Shown here: piece by piece, positions 24,092-35,094 of the stretch
Position numbering within the stretch: position 1 is the stretch's first letter
Layout of the letters: every line of letters begins with the position of its first letter
Source: Campylobacterota bacterium
GTDB lineage: Bacteria > Campylobacterota > Campylobacteria > Campylobacterales > Sulfurovaceae
Direction of reading: 5' to 3'
NCBI GenBank assembly: GCA_003252535.1
Contig: QKDN01000012.1
Location: 1 to 52,840, forward strand
DNA length: 52,840 nucleotides
Made by a program: the position numbers and the translations under genes
The notes under the pieces: generated by a model
Told to the model about the DNA's origin: nothing
Seen by the model: the letters and a program-made list of their open reading frames with translations, nothing else
Database searches by the model: none

Positions 24092-25045
24092 TTACTCCTT
24101 TTCTCTCTTTTTCTCATCTCTGCCGGGAGGGTAGCTGAGTGAGCGCAGCTTCTCCTGCAATCTTTTTTTGAGCATCCTCTTGAGCCCTGACGGCGCCAAT
24201 ACCTGGATATTGGGGAGCCATTTGATGAGGAGCTCCTCGACCTCCCGCAGGTTGCTGACCCGGTAATGAACCTCGATATCTCCGTTCTCGAACTCCCCTA
24301 CCACTTCCTGGCTGGGCAGATAGCGTTTGAATCTGAAGAATCTCCTCGAGGCTTTGTTCACTCTCAATTTTACCGTAATTTCTTCTTTTCCGAAAGTGGA
24401 AAACGGAGATTGGATGCGGCTGATGAACTGCAAAAACTCACGATGGGGGAAAAATACCCGGCTGGTCTGCACCACATCCATCACCATCGAGATACGCAGG
24501 AACTCAAATCGGTTGATCGAGACATTCTCCCCGACGAGGTAGAAGTTTTCATTGACAAAGAGTATCTTGTAGGGGTGGAACGATCTCTGGCTCGTTCCGT
24601 TCTCGCTTCTGTAGGTGATCTTGACGAGCTTGTTGAACTTGATGGCGTGTTCGAGTCTCTTAAGCATCTCGCCGTTGCGCATATCCTCGAGCGGTCTGGA
24701 CTTGAAGTCGTAGACCTCCATCGAGGTCTTGATGAGCGCTTCGGTCCTGTCGCTGATGGCGCTCTGCATCGAGGTCATCCCGAAGATATTGACGATATTG
24801 GCGAGCGTCATGAGGTCACGGGCTCCGAGTACCTCCTCGAGTAGCACCTTGCGATACGCCCGGTAGCACTCCCCTTCCTTGGAGGTAAACTCCCCGAAGA
24901 GCTCCCGGATCAGCTCAAAGTCCCGCCGGATCGTCCGGTCGCTCACTTCATACTCGACCGCCAGAGCGCTCACACAGAGCTTCTTCCCCTCATCGAGCCG
25001 CTTGAGTATCTCTATGGTACGGTATAGACTGGATTTTTGGCTCAT
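24092..25045 (-). CDS. WYL-domain transcriptional regulator
   Basis: 317 residues from ATG 25045, which overlaps the previous stop (ATGA). The N-terminal helix-turn-helix is YRTIEILKRLDEGKKLCVSA then YEVSDRTIRRDFELIREL. The WYL domain follows (KLVKITYRSENG ... FHPYKILFVNENFYLVGEN) with a C-terminal extension (PSQEVVGEFENGDIEVHYRV). WYL proteins bind nucleic-acid-like ligands and often regulate stress or defence genes. The AmrS gene follows after 2 bases. Confidence 0.85.
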   Translation of the reverse strand: MSQKSSLYRTIEILKRLDEGKKLCVSALAVEYEVSDRTIRRDFELIRELFGEFTSKEGECYRAYRKVLLEEVLGARDLMTLANIVNIFGMTSMQSAISDRTEALIKTSMEVYDFKSRPLEDMRNGEMLKRLEHAIKFNKLVKITYRSENGTSQRSFHPYKILFVNENFYLVGENVSINRFEFLRISMVMDVVQTSRVFFPHREFLQFISRIQSPFSTFGKEEITVKLRVNKASRRFFRFKRYLPSQEVVGEFENGDIEVHYRVSNLREVEELLIKWLPNIQVLAPSGLKRMLKKRLQEKLRSLSYPPGRDEKKREKE

Positions 25046-25812
25046 CTCTTCTCCCATCCTATATTCGAGAGCAGACCACACTTTTTGCACTCGAAGTCAA
25101 ACTGATCATGTAACGGCTCATCCAGTAACCATTCTCCGTGACATTGTGGACACTTACGCCCAAGTTCTTTTTTTCTGCTTCTAGCTGTATATTTATAGAG
25201 ATAGTAATAGGTTTTGATACCTGTCACCTCTTCGATCTTTTTACAAACATCCAAACCATCTTTTGTGAGTTGGCTATCGATCGATACAAGCTGATGATGT
25301 GCAAATCTCTCGCCAACACTGCTATTGATATGCAATGAATCACATGCTTCGTAATTGTCTTGCCAAAACTTGAATGAAATATACTCATCCTCGGTAAAAT
25401 TTGACAATTTATAATAGGGGATACTATTAAAGCATTTTTTGCATTTGAGTGGTAATGCTAAATCCAAATAGTTTGTATAGAGAATAAACTCAGAGAAGTC
25501 GTTACATTGACACACATTTTGTGATAGCGGTTCTCCCGATAAAATCGTCACAACTGGTTGCCCCAAATAAATGCCTTGAAATTGTTCAAAAATATTGCTT
25601 AGTAGTTCATCATTATATTTTTGAGATAATGAATCCTGTTCAGGAGTAGATACATAGATTTCAATGTTACTGTTTCTCATAGCAAGAGGATAATTTGAAC
25701 CTAGTACATGACCTCTTCTCTGCCATGTGCTATACAAATACGAGATCAATTCTATTTGTTCATCTTTTTTTTGTGCGTCATGAATATGAAATATAACTTG
25801 TGCGGTGTACAT
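25042..25812 (-). CDS. Zn-ribbon protein, DUF2310-like
   Basis: 256 residues. Several zinc-ribbon-like pairs are visible: CQCN, CKKC, and at the C-terminus CPQCHGEW and CKKCGL, which together can hold one or two zinc ions. The N-terminus (MYTAQVIFHIHDAQKKDEQI) fits DUF2310 proteins, predicted to bind nucleic acid. Function is unknown. The gene is AT-rich compared with its neighbours, a hint of transfer. It is coupled by overlap on both sides (TAATG with the gene before, ATGA with the WYL gene after). Confidence 0.6.
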   Translation of the reverse strand: MYTAQVIFHIHDAQKKDEQIELISYLYSTWQRRGHVLGSNYPLAMRNSNIEIYVSTPEQDSLSQKYNDELLSNIFEQFQGIYLGQPVVTILSGEPLSQNVCQCNDFSEFILYTNYLDLALPLKCKKCFNSIPYYKLSNFTEDEYISFKFWQDNYEACDSLHINSSVGERFAHHQLVSIDSQLTKDGLDVCKKIEEVTGIKTYYYLYKYTARSRKKELGRKCPQCHGEWLLDEPLHDQFDFECKKCGLLSNIGWEKR

Positions 25813-26132
25813 TACAAATACCCCTCTACCGAATTTCTGATCATCTCCACCAACACCTCATCCATATACTGATACTCATCGGGGATGTCAAGCACCACGA
25901 CTTTCTTGTGTTGTATCGCTCTGCCAAATGAGGCTTTGAGCCTGTCGCGATGTTTGGTCTCCATCACGAACACCACATCCGCCCACTCGATATCCTTTAC
26001 ACTCACCGTCCTCCTCGCCCGTGGACTCGTCCCCGCCGAACGGACACTGAACCGCTCATCCCTACTGTATATCTTCTCGGCAGTAGGACTGCGCCACTGG
26101 TTACGACTGCATATAAAGAGGAGGTTTTGCAT
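25812..26132 (-). CDS. Low-molecular-weight PTPase-like protein
   Basis: 106 residues. The phosphate-binding loop C8-x5-R14 (CSRNQWRSPTAE) is at the N-terminus, followed by SAGTSPRARRTVSVKDIEWAD and VFVMETKHRDRLK, as in stand-alone PTPase-like proteins. The typical C-terminal DP motif reads DIPDEYQYMD. It may dephosphorylate protein tyrosine or a small phosphorylated compound. It is the first gene of an overlapping series ending with amrS. Confidence 0.82.
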   Translation of the reverse strand: MQNLLFICSRNQWRSPTAEKIYSRDERFSVRSAGTSPRARRTVSVKDIEWADVVFVMETKHRDRLKASFGRAIQHKKVVVLDIPDEYQYMDEVLVEMIRNSVEGYL

Positions 26133-26186: not shown

Positions 26187-27233
26187 TCATATTTCTTCAT
26201 CCACTCTGCCCAATTTCAATTCAAGGATGTCTTTTTCCACTTCCCGTTTGAGCTCTTCTTCTGTAGGCAGATAGAGTTGGTATTTGGATGCGAAGAGGTT
26301 TTGGTTGTCACTCAGTACCGAGTATTTGACTACGGTGTCGTCTTTGTCGCTACAGAGTATGAGTCCGATGGTCGGGTTGTCGTTTTGCGACTTTTCGAGA
26401 TCGTCGTACATCCGTACATACATATCCATCTGTCCTACATCCTGATGCGTCAACTGTCCTATCTTGAGATCGATGAGGACGAAACATTTGAGGATGTAGT
26501 TGTAAAAGACCAGATCGATGTAGAAGTTGCTGTTGTCTGTCTGGATACGCTTTTGACGGGCGACGAAGGCAAATCCCCGCCCCAGCTCGAGCAAGAACTC
26601 CTGTATCCTGGCAATAAGCCCCGATTCGAGGTCGCTCTCGTAGAAGCTGTCGTTTTGTCTGAGATCCAAAAACTCCAGCACATAGGGGTCCTTGATGATG
26701 TCTTTGGGTGTGAGCTGCATATTTCGGGTATTGGCTGTCGCTTCTTCTCTGACGGGCAACTGCTCTTTGCTCGATAGCAGTCTCTCGTAATAGTGCGTAT
26801 GTATCTGCCTCTCCAGTGCCCGCACGCTCCACCCAGACGCCACGGACTCACTGATATACCACTCTCTGGCTTTCGGGTTCTCAAGTCGCATGATCAGTCT
26901 ATAATGGCTCCAGCTCAATTCTCTACACAGTGTGGAGAGAATTGGAAAGGCTTTATAGAACTGTCTTATATTCCATAAGCTTTGTGTCGAATAACCTTTC
27001 CCGAACTCTACCGTAAGCTGTCTCGATAACTCTTTGATGAGTTCGGCTCCGTACTTCGCCCGATCCTCGCCATGCTGTTCCTCTTCGACTATCTGCTTGC
27101 CGATATTCCAGTAAGCTTCGACCATGATGAAGTTGACCTGTTTATAGGCTTGATCCCTTGCGGTCTTGAGGATGGTTTTTATGGTTTGGTAGAAGTTGGT
27201 CGGCTGCATGACTTTGTCCTTTATCCCGCTCAT
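26187..27233 (-). CDS. DUF1016 / YhcG-type PD-(D/E)xK nuclease
   Basis: 348 residues, the family length. An N-terminal DUF1016 domain (about 10-160) contains YWNIGKQIVEEEQ, AKYGAELIKELSRQLT and FGKGYSTQSLWNIRQFY. The C-terminal nuclease domain has FYIDLVFYNYILKCFVLIDLKIGQL: the first Asp, then D-L-K instead of the common E-L-K, a conservative change. These proteins are found in defence or mobile regions and are thought to be nucleases; targets are not settled. It is followed upstream by an AT-rich orphan gene. Confidence 0.85.
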   Translation of the reverse strand: MSGIKDKVMQPTNFYQTIKTILKTARDQAYKQVNFIMVEAYWNIGKQIVEEEQHGEDRAKYGAELIKELSRQLTVEFGKGYSTQSLWNIRQFYKAFPILSTLCRELSWSHYRLIMRLENPKAREWYISESVASGWSVRALERQIHTHYYERLLSSKEQLPVREEATANTRNMQLTPKDIIKDPYVLEFLDLRQNDSFYESDLESGLIARIQEFLLELGRGFAFVARQKRIQTDNSNFYIDLVFYNYILKCFVLIDLKIGQLTHQDVGQMDMYVRMYDDLEKSQNDNPTIGLILCSDKDDTVVKYSVLSDNQNLFASKYQLYLPTEEELKREVEKDILELKLGRVDEEI

Positions 27234-27242
27234 CTCGAATGT

Positions 27243-27815
27243 TTAAATATCTCTTTTAAAAATTCTCCAAAAATATTTTTCCTCTTGATAGTATCGGACT
27301 ACAGGCTTTTGATTATAAATATTGTAAATATCATTATTCAATGTTTCTATAAATTTTTCAATATTTTGTTCAAACTCACTTAACCCATTATCATTTTTTA
27401 GTCTGTTTAATTCGAAAAGTGCAACTTGTTTGTATATATCTTCTTTTGTATTCAATTTAAAAAATTTTGAATAATTTCGAAATTCAAGTTGATGATTGTG
27501 TTCGAGATGATGAAATGATGTTCTCAATTGGAGTGATGCATAAACTTCATTAGTCAAATATATACGACGCAATTCTAAGAAAAAATTATAATATTCAACT
27601 GCAAACTTTTCAAATGCTTCACTATTTAATTTCAAAAAAGTCAAATATTTTTTCTTATCTGCAATCAATGCATTCAACGGATTATAGAGTTTCTCTAGTT
27701 GTTGTTTCGACCTGTCATATTTGATATTTCTTTTATGTAAAAGAATATTTACATAAGTCACAATGGATGAACCAATTATTGCACCAATTCCTATAGAATT
27801 TAAATCAATATTCAT
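27243..27815 (-). CDS. AT-rich hypothetical protein with one N-terminal membrane helix
   Basis: 190 residues. A hydrophobic helix (GIGAIIGSSIVTYVNILL, about 9-26) is followed by a soluble helical region rich in Lys, Asn, Phe and Tyr (KQQLEKLYNPLNALIADKKK). No family recognised. It is far more AT-rich than the flanking genes, which suggests acquired DNA. It lies 9 bases from the DUF1016 gene and is divergent from the rtcB2 operon. It might be a membrane partner of the nuclease (inference). Confidence 0.55.
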   Translation of the reverse strand: MNIDLNSIGIGAIIGSSIVTYVNILLHKRNIKYDRSKQQLEKLYNPLNALIADKKKYLTFLKLNSEAFEKFAVEYYNFFLELRRIYLTNEVYASLQLRTSFHHLEHNHQLEFRNYSKFFKLNTKEDIYKQVALFELNRLKNDNGLSEFEQNIEKFIETLNNDIYNIYNQKPVVRYYQEEKYFWRIFKRDI

Positions 27816-27919: not shown

Positions 27920-27953
27920 TCGGACAAAATACGACACACATTTCCGCTACCAT
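27920..27953 (+). promoter_or_regulatory. Shared rtcB element and -10-like box upstream of rtcB2-prfH
   Basis: TCGGACAAAATACGAC (27920-27935), then 12 bases, then TACCAT (27948-27953). The 16-mer matches the one before the other rtcB gene (33694-33709) at 14 of 16 positions, and the spacing to the -10-like box is identical. Here the inverted half-sites are weaker (GTCG-N9-CGAC). It is a candidate operator or activator site that replaces the -35. Confidence 0.5.
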
Positions 27954-27982: not shown

Positions 27983-28117
27983 ATGCAAAACATAGCAACA
28001 TTAACGGACACAAAACAAAGCACTACAAACATATATGAAAAAAGAAAACGGAGAAAATATGAACAATCCAACGATCATCGCTTCGGAGCGCAACTGGATC
28101 GACAGCCGGAGCGTTGA
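27983..28117 (+). CDS. Short leader-like ORF overlapping the rtcB2 start
   Basis: 44 codons from ATG 27983, with AAAGGAG exactly 7 bases upstream, the strongest ribosome site in this part of the window. It begins MQNIATLTDTKQST and becomes basic (YEKRKRRKYEQ). It runs through the rtcB2 start in another frame and stops at TGA 28115-28117, about 57 bases inside rtcB2. It could be a translated leader that controls rtcB2 by coupling, or a remnant N-terminus of an antitoxin-like gene. No homologue recognised. Confidence 0.35.
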   Translation: MQNIATLTDTKQSTTNIYEKRKRRKYEQSNDHRFGAQLDRQPER

Positions 28118-29123
28118 GACACTGAGACAGATAGCACACTTCCAGGGTGTGCAGAGGGTCGTGGGGCTGCCCGACCTGAGCGTGGGGCATGTCCCCAACG
28201 GCATGGCAGTCGCGACCACAGAGAGGATATACCCGCACCTCATAGGCGGGGATATCGGGTGCGGGATGGCGCTCTACGAGACCGCAGTCAGGGGGAAGAA
28301 GATCAGGGCGGAGCGGTTTGCCAGACACCTCACGAAGCTCGATTCGCTCTATGACATAGAGGACGGGGAAGAGCCGGGATGCCACCTCGGCACGATCGGC
28401 AGGGGCAACCACTTCGCCGAGCTCCATGTGGTGGAGAGTGTAGCCGACAGGGAGCTCTTCGATGCTCTCGGGATCGATGCAGGGTCGCTCTACATCCTCG
28501 TCCACAGTGGATCGAGAGCCTACGGACAGATCGTATTCGACCGGGTGAGCGGCAGCTACGAGCCGGGCAGCGGTATCGACGCTGCCGACGAAGAAGCCGC
28601 ACGCTACCTCGCATCGCACGACACCGCCATAGGGTACGCCAGAGAGAGCCGCCGTATCATAGCGGGGAGACTCGCCGCAGCGATCAGGATCGAGAGAGAC
28701 CTGCGCACCGTCAGCGACACGGCGCACAACTCCATCACACGCCGCGATGGACAATGGCTCCACCGCAAGGGGGCGACACCTACCGATCAGGGAGCAGTGA
28801 TGATAGCGGGGAGCCGTGGGAGCCTGAGCTACCTCGTACAGCCAGCTGCCGATACCGCGCACTCCCTCCATTCCCTCGCCCACGGAGCCGGGAGGAAATG
28901 GGAACGCAACAGTGCGCGGGGCAAGCTCAGCCACAAGTACACCAGGAGCGACCTCGAGCGCACCGCCATCGGCTCGCGCGTCCTCTGCCGAGACAAAGCG
29001 CTCCTCTACGAGGAAGCGCCGCAGGCGTACAAAGATATCGAAGTGGTAATCGGCGATCTCGTCGATGCGGGGCTGGCGACGGTGATAGCGTCGTTCCGCC
29101 CTATCCTCACCTACAAGGATTAG
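28059..29123 (+). CDS. rtcB2: RtcB2-type RNA ligase (partner of PrfH)
   Basis: 354 residues from ATG 28059 (GGAGA 5 bases upstream); an ATG at 28035 would add 8 residues. It is shorter than housekeeping RtcB but keeps the active-site strings: GGDIGCGM with the Mn-binding cysteine, GRGNHFAEL, VHSGSRAYG, LHRKGATPTDQGA, and AHGAGRKWER with the histidine that takes GMP. RtcB joins 2',3'-cyclic phosphate or 3'-phosphate ends to 5'-OH ends. The prfH gene follows after 3 bases. Known RtcB2-PrfH pairs release ribosomes cut in the 16S decoding centre and reseal the rRNA. Confidence 0.88.
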   Translation: MNNPTIIASERNWIDSRSVETLRQIAHFQGVQRVVGLPDLSVGHVPNGMAVATTERIYPHLIGGDIGCGMALYETAVRGKKIRAERFARHLTKLDSLYDIEDGEEPGCHLGTIGRGNHFAELHVVESVADRELFDALGIDAGSLYILVHSGSRAYGQIVFDRVSGSYEPGSGIDAADEEAARYLASHDTAIGYARESRRIIAGRLAAAIRIERDLRTVSDTAHNSITRRDGQWLHRKGATPTDQGAVMIAGSRGSLSYLVQPAADTAHSLHSLAHGAGRKWERNSARGKLSHKYTRSDLERTAIGSRVLCRDKALLYEEAPQAYKDIEVVIGDLVDAGLATVIASFRPILTYKD

Positions 29124-29126
29124 CCG

Positions 29127-29726
29127 ATGCTGGTCATGATAAGCAGCGGCAGCGGTGTCGATGAGGTGATGCGTGCGCTGTGGCACTTCGAGCGGTGGCT
29201 CGGCGAACGATACGACTACGAGGTGGTCGAGAGGGAGAGCGGCGAATGTCCGATGTGCACCCGCTCACTCCTGATCCGCAGCATGGATGAGAGACTGCGG
29301 GCACTGGAGGGGACACACCTCTGGAGAGCGCGGAGCCCCTTTCGCACGAGACACAAAAGGAGGAACTGGTACTTCTCGCTACGATGCTACGACGAACCCA
29401 CAGAGAGCGATACAGACCCCCGGGAGATAGAGTACCAGAGCATGAGAAGTCCCAAAAACGGCGGGCAGCACGCCAACACAACATCAAGCGGTGTGAGAGC
29501 CGTCCACAGGGGGCTGGGACTGAGCGCCGTGAGCTACGACGAGCGGAGCCAGCACCGCAACAGGAAGATCGCCCACGAGAGGCTCATCGCCAAAATAGCC
29601 CTCCACGGGCAGAGCATCGCCACCGATGCCAGAGAGACAAGATGGAGAGAGGGGAAGGAGATCGAGCGGGGCGATGCGCTGCTTGTATTCAGAGGAGAGT
29701 CATTCGCCCTCCTCAGACACCCATGA
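29127..29726 (+). CDS. prfH: Peptide chain release factor homologue PrfH
   Basis: 199 residues from ATG 29127, 3 bases after rtcB2. The N-terminal half replaces the normal codon-recognition domain (DYEVVERESGECPMCTRSLL, with a CPMC pair). The catalytic domain contains the GGQ loop at about 112-114 (SPKNGGQHANTTSSGVRAV), followed by basic residues (QHRNRKIAHERL). In the known system PrfH hydrolyses peptidyl-tRNA on ribosomes whose 16S rRNA is nicked near A1493, letting RtcB2 repair them. The last 14 bases overlap convergent yjbQ. Confidence 0.9.
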   Translation: MLVMISSGSGVDEVMRALWHFERWLGERYDYEVVERESGECPMCTRSLLIRSMDERLRALEGTHLWRARSPFRTRHKRRNWYFSLRCYDEPTESDTDPREIEYQSMRSPKNGGQHANTTSSGVRAVHRGLGLSAVSYDERSQHRNRKIAHERLIAKIALHGQSIATDARETRWREGKEIERGDALLVFRGESFALLRHP

Positions 29727-33693: not shown

Positions 33694-33727
33694 TCGGTCA
33701 TAATACGACCGATACTTCCTTTATAAT
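33694..33727 (+). promoter_or_regulatory. Shared rtcB element and TATAAT upstream of the second rtcB
   Basis: TCGGTCATAATACGAC (33694-33709), 12 bases, then TATAAT (33722-33727). The element is palindromic: TCGGTC-N7-GACCGA (33694-33712), as expected for a dimeric regulator. It covers the place of the -35. The 16-mer is 14 of 16 identical to the one before rtcB2 (27920-27935), with the same spacing to the -10. Confidence 0.55.
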
Positions 33728-33756: not shown

Positions 33757-35094
33757 ATGAATCTCAAAGATTTCGGCTTCTTCGATATCGATCACGATCG
33801 TCTCGGGAAGCTTCAAAAACCGTACAAGATCTATGCCGAGCTGCTTGACGAAACCTCGATGGAACAGTTCCACGATGTCCTCTCGCAGCCCTTCGTCACC
33901 TACGGGGCGCTGATGCCCGACGCCCATGCAGGTTATACCATGCCCATCGGCGGGGTATGCGCCACCAGGGATGTCATCGTACCGCAGTTCGTGGGCTTCG
34001 ATATCGGGTGCGGCATGTGCGCCTACAAGACCGAATATACCAAAGTGGAGATCGAGGCAAATGCCGAGATCATCTACAACCATATCGTCGAGCGTATCCC
34101 GCTGGGGTTCAGCACACACAAGAACCATCAGCCCATGACTATCGACCTCCCGCTGAGCGATCTCGCATCCCACATCCTGGAGACCTCGGGGCGCAAGCAG
34201 CTGGGGACGCTGGGAGGTGGCAACCACTTCATCGAAGTGGGATACGGGAGCGACGAGAAGGCGTGGATCGTGATCCACTCGGGGAGCCGCGGGTTCGGTC
34301 ACAAGATCGCATCACACTATATGCTCCAGGCGTACCTCGAGAAGAACCCTATCGAGGGGCGGCTCGAGAAAATCCTGGAGGATTTCGCCGCGAGGAACAG
34401 GAACCTCGCCGAGCACAACCCTGAAGTGTATGAGAAAGCGCTCCATAAATTCACCCTCAAGACCCAGGTAGAGCTGAACAAAAAGATCAAGCTGGACAAT
34501 ATCAAGGGTATCTACGGTCTCCATGTAGAGAGCGAACTGGGCAAGGAGTATATCAAAGACCAGAAATTCGCCCTCGCCTTCGCGCTGGAGAACCGCAAGA
34601 AGATGATCGAGACGATCCACACGATCCTCAATGATGTGCTCGGCGGCAGTCACGAATTCGACCATACGGACGGAGAGAAGTTCATCAACCGCAACCATAA
34701 CCATGCGGAGTACTGCGAAGTGCGTGGGGAGTGGATCCACCGCAAGGGTGCGACCCATGCCGAAGAGGGGATGAGCGGCGTGATCCCTGGCAATATGCGC
34801 GACGGCTCCTTCATCGTCCGGGGCAAAGGGCACGCCGACTCGCTCGCCTCATCCTCACACGGCGCGGGGCGCGTCATGAGCCGCAACAGGGCAAAGGCGA
34901 GCGTATCGCTCGAAGAGTTCGAAGCGGCAATGCAGGGGATCACCGGGACGGTCGACGAGAAGACCCTCGACGAGTCCCCCTTCGCCTACAAGGATATCTT
35001 CGAGGTAATGGAGCTCCAGAAAGAGCTCGTCGAAGTGGTCGAACACATCAAGGTGCTCATCAATGTCAAGGACAACGCGAAGAGCAGGTACTGA
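33757..35094 (+). CDS. rtcB: RtcB family RNA-splicing ligase
   Basis: 445 residues from ATG 33757, with AAAGGAG 4 bases upstream. All RtcB active-site strings are present: MPDAHAGYTMPIGG, GFDIGCGM, GTLGGGNHFIE, IHSGSRGFGHKIA, HRKGATHAEEGMSGVIPGNM and SSSHGAGRVMSR, whose histidine is guanylylated. It ligates 3'-phosphate to 5'-OH RNA ends using GTP and Mn2+. It is distinct from and longer than the rtcB2 copy. No archease is adjacent. The stop codon abuts the convergent nucleotidase stop (TGATCA). Confidence 0.94.
   Translation: MNLKDFGFFDIDHDRLGKLQKPYKIYAELLDETSMEQFHDVLSQPFVTYGALMPDAHAGYTMPIGGVCATRDVIVPQFVGFDIGCGMCAYKTEYTKVEIEANAEIIYNHIVERIPLGFSTHKNHQPMTIDLPLSDLASHILETSGRKQLGTLGGGNHFIEVGYGSDEKAWIVIHSGSRGFGHKIASHYMLQAYLEKNPIEGRLEKILEDFAARNRNLAEHNPEVYEKALHKFTLKTQVELNKKIKLDNIKGIYGLHVESELGKEYIKDQKFALAFALENRKKMIETIHTILNDVLGGSHEFDHTDGEKFINRNHNHAEYCEVRGEWIHRKGATHAEEGMSGVIPGNMRDGSFIVRGKGHADSLASSSHGAGRVMSRNRAKASVSLEEFEAAMQGITGTVDEKTLDESPFAYKDIFEVMELQKELVEVVEHIKVLINVKDNAKSRY

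Follow-up and report, generated by a model that had tools for sequence, protein, structure and literature searches.

Escherichia coli ATCC 25922 carries an RtcB2-PrfH pair (PMC9223846; PMC1586002), for which ribosome rescue and RNA repair steps have been published (PMC9223846). We analyzed a stretch of DNA of 52,840 nucleotides from a Campylobacterota bacterium of the family Sulfurovaceae (contig QKDN01000012.1, positions 1 to 52,840 of the forward strand; hereafter the window), which carries genes encoding an RNA ligase, rtcB2, and a peptide chain release factor, prfH. The locus resembles the E. coli pair in gene order, in the near contact between the two genes, in the clade of its RtcB2, and in a GGQ factor devoid of domain 1. 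It differs from that pair by a divergent PrfH, a promoter linked to a WYL-domain regulator, and a leader open reading frame (ORF) overlapping the start of rtcB2. Judged from its sequence, the rtcB2-prfH operon (28059-29726) is real and is a new example of a known operon type; its proposed control, by an operator-WYL regulon and an overlapping leader, is what looks new. We consider it probable that the operon functions in rescue and repair within a dispersed, WYL-controlled RNA-repair regulon of Sulfurovaceae and some other Campylobacterales.

In the rsr-yrlBA-rtcBA operon controlled by RtcR, as described in PMC7790460, one damage-responsive regulator likewise governs RtcB together with Y RNAs that contain a tRNA-like domain. 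RtcR is a CARF-type enhancer-binding activator and its genes form one operon, whereas the lineage of the window combines a WYL protein with dispersed promoters, among them that of RtcB2-PrfH. The regulator linked to the present locus is an HTH-WYL-WCX protein and not a CARF sigma-54 activator encoded beside rtcB, as in RtcR regulons. DriD and PafBC are WYL activators of DNA damage responses (PMC12340889, PMC11804915). DriD is a single-stranded DNA-binding activator of promoters whose -35 element is poor; the sites it recognizes lie over -35 and keep a constant spacing to -10 (PMC12340889). Comparable features were detected here, namely a predicted protein with HTH and WYL domains and a candidate site lying over -35 at a fixed distance from -10, but the targets are RNA-repair genes whereas DriD and PafBC serve DNA damage. 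Finally, Anabaena has in TrcR a single regulator that, during translational stress, controls rtcB together with a slipin gene and a tRNA operon (PMC10272220). This protein acts as a repressor; neither WYL nor HTH appears as a word in the main text of that article, and its available portions gave no link to PrfH. In the available text of PMC4012209, PMC4275035, PMC11888443, PMC7790460, PMC9122601, and PMC6514570, WYL proteins were not tied to RtcB or PrfH. The open-licence literature contained no report that we could find of the operator-WYL regulon or of the overlapping leader, and its available portions did not explain how expression of RtcB2-PrfH is turned on. The operator, the candidate regulator, and the list of co-regulated genes presented below make this control directly testable.

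The rtcB2 gene (28059..29123, + strand) encodes a protein of 354 residues, ends with a TAG codon, and is separated by 3 bases from prfH (29127..29726, +). The ATG at 28059 was retained as the rtcB2 start on the basis of homologues, rather than the start of the longer ORF at 28035. The product matched the NCBIfam profiles NF007153 and TIGR03073 with scores of 430.9 and 369.4 bits, above the respective cut-offs of 407 and 271.8 (NCBIfam E-values of 4e-129 for RtcB2 and 1.7e-42 for PrfH). It contains the catalytic strings GGDIGCGM (residue 63), GNHF (116), HSGSR (149), TAHNS (221), and AHGAGRKW (274), and residues C68, N117, H118, H149, H223, and H275 were invariant in an alignment of 11 rows including the window. 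These strings and coordinates agree with an earlier note on this DNA, which had described a short RtcB with active-site strings located 3 bases before a GGQ protein. The same note had proposed phylogeny as a check of the RtcB2-PrfH identity, which a position outside the PrfH-linked clade would have refuted. In a tree of 28 RtcB rows, with L223 and E. coli RtcB on long branches, the window RtcB2 withstood this check: it was located inside a clade of 15 PrfH-linked RtcB2 rows (support 100/99), within a Campylobacterota branch (100/100) to which Pelosinus was the nearest row outside (99/95). The RtcB2 of Escherichia whittamii is 46% identical to that of the window. The order RtcB2-then-PrfH was observed in 75 of 80 named loci, which had been found with the RtcB2 alignment; among the remaining five, L144 and L180 end 335 and 62 nt past rtcB2, respectively, and L153, L181, and L201 had no PrfH match.

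PrfH is a protein of 199 residues with GGQ at positions 112-114. It matched TIGR03072 end to end (positions 1-200) with 145.2 bits, under the cut-off of 166.65. This cut-off was passed in none of the 175 genomes of the family, and the 13 genomes taken as encoding PrfH, chosen by open-frame length and profile span, scored 133.2-155.7; G020 was added later, and the resulting total of 14 is a lower bound. In 12 of 13 family loci prfH directly follows rtcB2, the thirteenth stopping at a contig end. The best matches in the PDB were 9mor and 7sa4, both by sequence (1.9e-24 and 1.1e-20) and by fold (TM of 0.78 and 0.76 for a predicted model with a pLDDT of 78). Both entries are titled 'Damaged 70S ribosome with PrfH bound', so that sequence and fold of PrfH, together with the clade of RtcB, bear out the RtcB2-PrfH identity. 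PrfH contains SPF where an SXY anticodon was reported in 2006, along with a GP signature, and the Arg following SPF is present. S70-P71-F72-R73 and GGQ were conserved in 11 of 11 alignment rows; G130, outside those rows, has SLFR. Since RF2 and RF1 can also be aligned with the model across about 200 columns and S-P-F-R is kept, the codon-recognition part is predicted to be present, only the N-terminal domain 1 being missing. The earlier note was thus right about the GGQ motif and wrong in supposing that the protein lacks normal codon-reading parts. By its sequence, PrfH is assigned to a divergent branch of PrfH/RFH. A second, partial PrfH frame (residues 75-193) was seen in G053 (L042:932-1288, +), about 3.5 kb from the intact copy.

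Aligned upstream regions and pattern scans revealed a candidate operator, a 15-bp imperfect palindrome with the consensus [GT]G[AT]CA-N2-AT-[AGT]-[CT]G[AT]C. The copy upstream from rtcB2-prfH is GGACAAAATACGACA (27922..27936, +), followed after 11 nt by the -10 hexamer TACCAT (27948..27953, +). The second RtcB gene of the window is preceded by GGTCATAATACGACC (33696..33710, +) and, again 11 nt past the operator, by TATAAT (33722..33727, +). A TANNNT hexamer was present exactly 11 nt past the operator in all 33 aligned sites, which comprised 13 sites of rtcB2, 18 of second-type RtcB genes, and 2 of RING genes. The operator extends from about -38 to -24, with its centre near -31, the usual place of a -35 element, and three of the 33 sites, those of G023 and of the two RING promoters, have it as a perfect inverted repeat. 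It preceded 18 of 18 aligned second-type RtcB genes, at 59-63 nt before the start in 17 of them; the start of the eighteenth (G172) had been placed 30 nt too far downstream, giving a distance of 91 nt instead of about 61 nt. The upstream alignments do not include L135 (masked region) and G158 (L038), which is close to G162 and whose operator was found by scanning its DNA; the upstream region of G051 is cut by a contig end. In G158, contig C62, an rtcB2-type promoter and leader (L273, position ~2231, -) occur with no rtcB2 ORF seen behind them, an apparent remnant.

Scanning 525 kb of DNA detected 54 operators, 52 of them with a -10 element at that offset, against 2.0 and 0.05 in block shuffles; the pattern was drawn from the same sites and much of this DNA had been fetched for these genes, so that genome-wide tests weigh more. 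In the latter, operator plus -10 was present in 24 of 28 regulator-positive genomes (58 sites, versus 2 in a backwards control) and in 6 of 36 regulator-negative genomes picked by hand, mostly from the same genera (7 sites, control 5); four of these 7 sites lie before RtcB genes. Across 398 genomes of the order, the pattern matched 19 sites in 13 genomes, and its backwards control gave 0 among the matches listed. Eleven of the 19 sites precede RtcB2-PrfH, the second RtcB, a RING or SPFH gene, or a 250-aa gene, and two more (G363 and G380) are positioned at the expected rtcB2 start by coordinates. None of the 7 canonical RtcB genes had an operator within 180 nt, a weak control as these genes lie behind another gene and the promoter may be further upstream; two of the genomes with canonical RtcB, G068 and G097, had no operator site genome-wide. 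The site at L241 precedes a stretch with no identified gene.

The regulator gene (24092..25090, -) is located 3 kb upstream of rtcB2 and encodes, according to domain searches, HTH, WYL, and WCX domains; its true start, judging from relatives, is perhaps at about 25045. Five PDB entries matched the product with E-values of 4e-7 to 2e-6, 9cu3 first, followed by entries that the literature, as far as available, identifies as DriD (9pfq with 9pfv/9pga, 8tp8, and 7tzv). A close homologue (E <= 1e-60) was detected in 27 of 175 genomes, and the G023 copy, cut by a contig end, brought the count to 28. On this count, the regulator occurred in 22 of the 27 genomes that carry a short-type RtcB versus 6 of 148 others (Fisher p of 5e-18, genomes treated as independent), in 0 of 7 genomes with canonical RtcB, and in 12 of 14 PrfH genomes versus 16 of 161 others (Fisher 2e-9, on the same assumption). 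Among the 80 loci mentioned above, the fetched flanks contained the regulator in 8 of 12 Campylobacterota loci, and a single distant match was obtained for the other 68. The regulator and rtcB2 adjoin in some relatives. In G018, G022, G130, G158, G162, and G168, the regulator gene and rtcB2 are divergently oriented, some 0.1 to 2.3 kb apart, and in G054, G145, and G172 the regulator gene is divergent from the second-type RtcB gene.

The second RtcB (33757..35094, +; 445 residues; PF01139) starts 4.6 kb past the first, and these two genes were the only RtcB matches of the genome at E <= 0.001. It is not of the archease-linked type. In the tree it grouped apart from the canonical 478-aa RtcB of the family, whose immediate upstream neighbor by Pfam, in the single genome tested (L231), encodes archease, and joined E. 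coli RtcB (96/93), a placement flagged as unsure since it is a join of long branches. Any RtcB (E <= 1e-20) was detected in 34 of the 175 family genomes, leaving 141 without, and the canonical type in 7, the window genome not being one of them. A housekeeping status of the second RtcB was rejected in view of the patchy distribution of RtcB, the gene's own promoter element, and the lack of an archease link and of a third RtcB; the earlier note had correctly placed a second RtcB some 5 kb away, but its description as housekeeping-like did not hold. At L112:11420 (+; G106, contig C20), a second-type RtcB promoter is followed only by the last residues of the gene, an apparent remnant.

Three operator promoters were found in the window genome, those of rtcB2-prfH, of the second RtcB, and of an RNA and a RING gene on contig 67. 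The latter RNA (L216:9634-9703, contig C67, -) follows a perfect operator and adopts a predicted tRNA-like cloverleaf (fold z of -2.8). It matched Rfam tRNA-Sec with 25.3 bits (E of 0.28, under gathering), no YrlA (RF02553) match was obtained in L216, and it is possibly a Y-RNA relative. The neighboring gene (L216:7278-9524, contig C67, -) encodes a protein of 748 residues with a relationship to the MXAN_6230/SCO0854 RING family (140 bits against a cut-off of 600), with homologues in 3 of 175 genomes including that of the window. Operator and a T-arm-like RNA were found in the regulator-positive genome G020, a T-arm-like RNA with no operator in G154, where no close regulator was found, and operator and a similar RING-protein start at a contig end in G164. 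In other relatives, the operator precedes Y-RNA-like RNAs and SPFH genes (SPFH by Pfam in two) and, once, a helicase gene. Y-RNA-like or tRNA-like RNAs lie between the operator and an SPFH-type gene at L114:3175-3304, L116:4198-4361, L035:7780-7876, and L140:5363-5416 (all -); RF02553 scored 26.0-42.6 bits in these four loci, below the gathering value of 69, and ARAGORN reported no tRNA gene at the tRNA-like RNAs. The operator also precedes, in relatives, an orphan family of about 240-250 aa (phrog_4243), with members at L111:2407-3156 (-), L113:12854-13603 (+), L114:4895-5644 (+), L005:571-1305 (-), L276:1546-2274 (-), and L279:1556-2266 (-). The orphan is encoded either behind its own operator and leader or, in some genomes, directly after prfH, and its copy in L113 had no match in Pfam or NCBIfam.

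Upstream alignments revealed a leader ORF of 44 aa (27983..28117, +), which has its own Shine-Dalgarno (SD) sequence and overlaps the rtcB2 start in the +1 frame. The open-frame test used an ATG picked among frames open to rtcB2 and showed the other two frames to be closed in 12 of 12 loci; when it was repeated with the first ATG past the operator, 11 of the 12 loci had a frame extending across the start of rtcB2. The distance from the leader ATG to the rtcB2 ATG in these 11 loci was 58, 70, 73, 76, or 79 nt, always 1 modulo 3; in L139, the twelfth locus, an overlapping ORF led by an SD sequence is found at 71. The leader distance is 61 in G020, and three loci have the same arrangement in front of the 250-aa gene (73, 76, and 76); second-type RtcB genes have no such leader. 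Since the leader changes in length by steps of three, selection on its translation is suggested. The mean unpaired probability at the rtcB2 ribosome site ranged from 0.40 to 0.91 in 13 loci. Folding of the leader as a switch at the rtcB2 ribosome site was rejected owing to the lack of consistent sequestration in these loci, and for the same reason competition or coupling between the two starts is the role that we favor. A programmed +1 frameshift from the leader into RtcB2 was considered, and inspection, by eye only, revealed no common slippery site. In other phyla, an SD-led overlapping frame was found in 8 of 67 loci, seven of which share one different arrangement, at 149 nt. L169, L184, L185, L188, L192, L195, and L202, which are from Sphingomonadales and a Caulobacter, have a frame of some 50 aa, led by an SD sequence, whose end falls just within rtcB2; in L169 and L184 this frame is possibly the last part of a gene lying upstream.

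In the mechanism that we propose, a ribonuclease would cut the 16S decoding centre, PrfH would enter the A site of the stalled ribosome and hydrolyze the peptidyl-tRNA, and, following separation of the subunits, RtcB2 would reseal the 2',3'-cyclic phosphate/5'-OH break, as expected by homology to E. coli. The WYL factor would bind the 15-bp operator at the -35 position, with -10 at an invariant distance, and, like DriD, would most likely activate transcription after binding a nucleic-acid fragment generated by the damage. The same promoter type would serve the second RtcB, the RNAs of Y-RNA-like or tRNA-like type together with SPFH or RING proteins, and the 250-aa orphan, and the short leader ORF, out of frame over the start of rtcB2 and of the orphan, would probably add translational coupling. 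One response would thereby link ribosome repair, tRNA-mimic RNAs, and ligases, and sensing by WYL proteins may extend from DNA damage to RNA damage. A bolder version, which we advance only tentatively, would be a Campylobacterota RNA-damage response parallel to SOS, in which a DriD-like WYL activator induces RtcB2-PrfH, the second RtcB, tRNA-mimic RNAs, and partners, and in which the leader acts as a sensor, being less translated under conditions of poor decoding and thereby freeing the rtcB2 start.

Several observations weigh against control of a dispersed regulon by the WYL protein. The genomes compared contain related sequences, so that the Fisher probabilities are too small. Among draft assemblies, G084 and G108 have prfH and no close regulator homologue, and G026 and G174 keep the operator and lack such a homologue. 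Four regulator-positive genomes (G112, G155, G165, and G171) have no operator site, the sites at L259, L271, and L274, outside RtcB loci, precede unrelated genes, and 6 of the 19 order-level sites are followed by other genes or by genes not identified. Genomes bearing the element without a detected close WYL homologue (G026, G174, and G084) would also be explained if the element were the -35-like site of an alternative sigma factor and the WYL gene a mere neighbor, and the invariant 11-nt spacing to -10 fits that explanation too. We regard it as very unlikely, since the half-sites are inverted repeats of each other (perfectly so in 3 of 33 sites), the WYL gene co-occurs with the element and is divergently adjacent to its targets, and 385 of the 398 genomes of the order have no site, sigma factors not having been searched for. 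Some WYL proteins repress, several defence pathways being among their targets (PMC11888443), and the operator overlaps the -35 region; the WYL protein could accordingly be a repressor that occludes this region and is released upon damage, in the way reported for the WYL regulators of certain phage defence systems. This seems to us somewhat unlikely, as rigid spacing to -10 combined with overlap of -35 is the mark of DriD-type activation, and DriD is among the nearest solved relatives. Activation upon damage is therefore favored over repression, DriD-type activation having such sites and the operator lying at about -38 to -24.

The 16S decoding centre as the target would be called into question if the operon acted on another RNA lesion, in tRNA or 23S. 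PrfH belongs to a divergent branch, the same operator serves tRNA-like RNAs, and no E3-type nuclease domain was found in the window genome. Indeed, a search for the colicin-E3-type nuclease domain PF09000 gave no match in the window genome and, in the 175 family genomes, two matches under the cut-off and none over it; it also gave 0 in 14 control genomes, so that its sensitivity is unproven. A local E3-type toxin as the trigger was set aside in the absence of a PF09000 match in the window genome. Nevertheless, the E. coli pair conferred no protection from the tRNA-cutting colicins E5 and D (PMC9223846), and the titles of the solved PrfH structures place the protein on damaged 70S, making a different lesion an improbable explanation. 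A functionless leader has a similarly small chance of being correct: the leader region is 50-64% A, and an open frame would arise by chance in 6-24% of cases per sequence upon mononucleotide shuffling, as expected for a by-product of an A-rich untranslated leader, but such a by-product would not account for the overlapping frame opened by the first ATG in 11 of 12 loci, the closure of the other frames in 12 of 12, distances of 1 modulo 3, or the recurrence of the arrangement in G020 and before the 250-aa gene.

The region between the regulator operon and rtcB2 (26187-27815, -) contains a YhcG-type PDDEXK nuclease gene and a 190-aa ORF assigned to no family. PADLOC assigned only WYL models to the regulator and, to the YhcG-like gene, the candidate PDC-S02 and a general PD-DExK model; a defence-system label was dropped on these matches. 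The regulator gene lies behind, and is overlapped by, a gene encoding a DUF2310 Zn-ribbon protein (25042..25812, -; PF10071), itself preceded by a gene for a small phosphatase-like protein found by domain search (LMWPc; 25812..26132, -). A DUF2310 gene is also located between rtcB2 and the regulator in G023, and an LMWPc gene adjoins the regulator in G053 and is one gene apart from it in G105 and G110. The DUF2310 and LMWPc genes, which run into the WYL gene, are possible further partners in the response.

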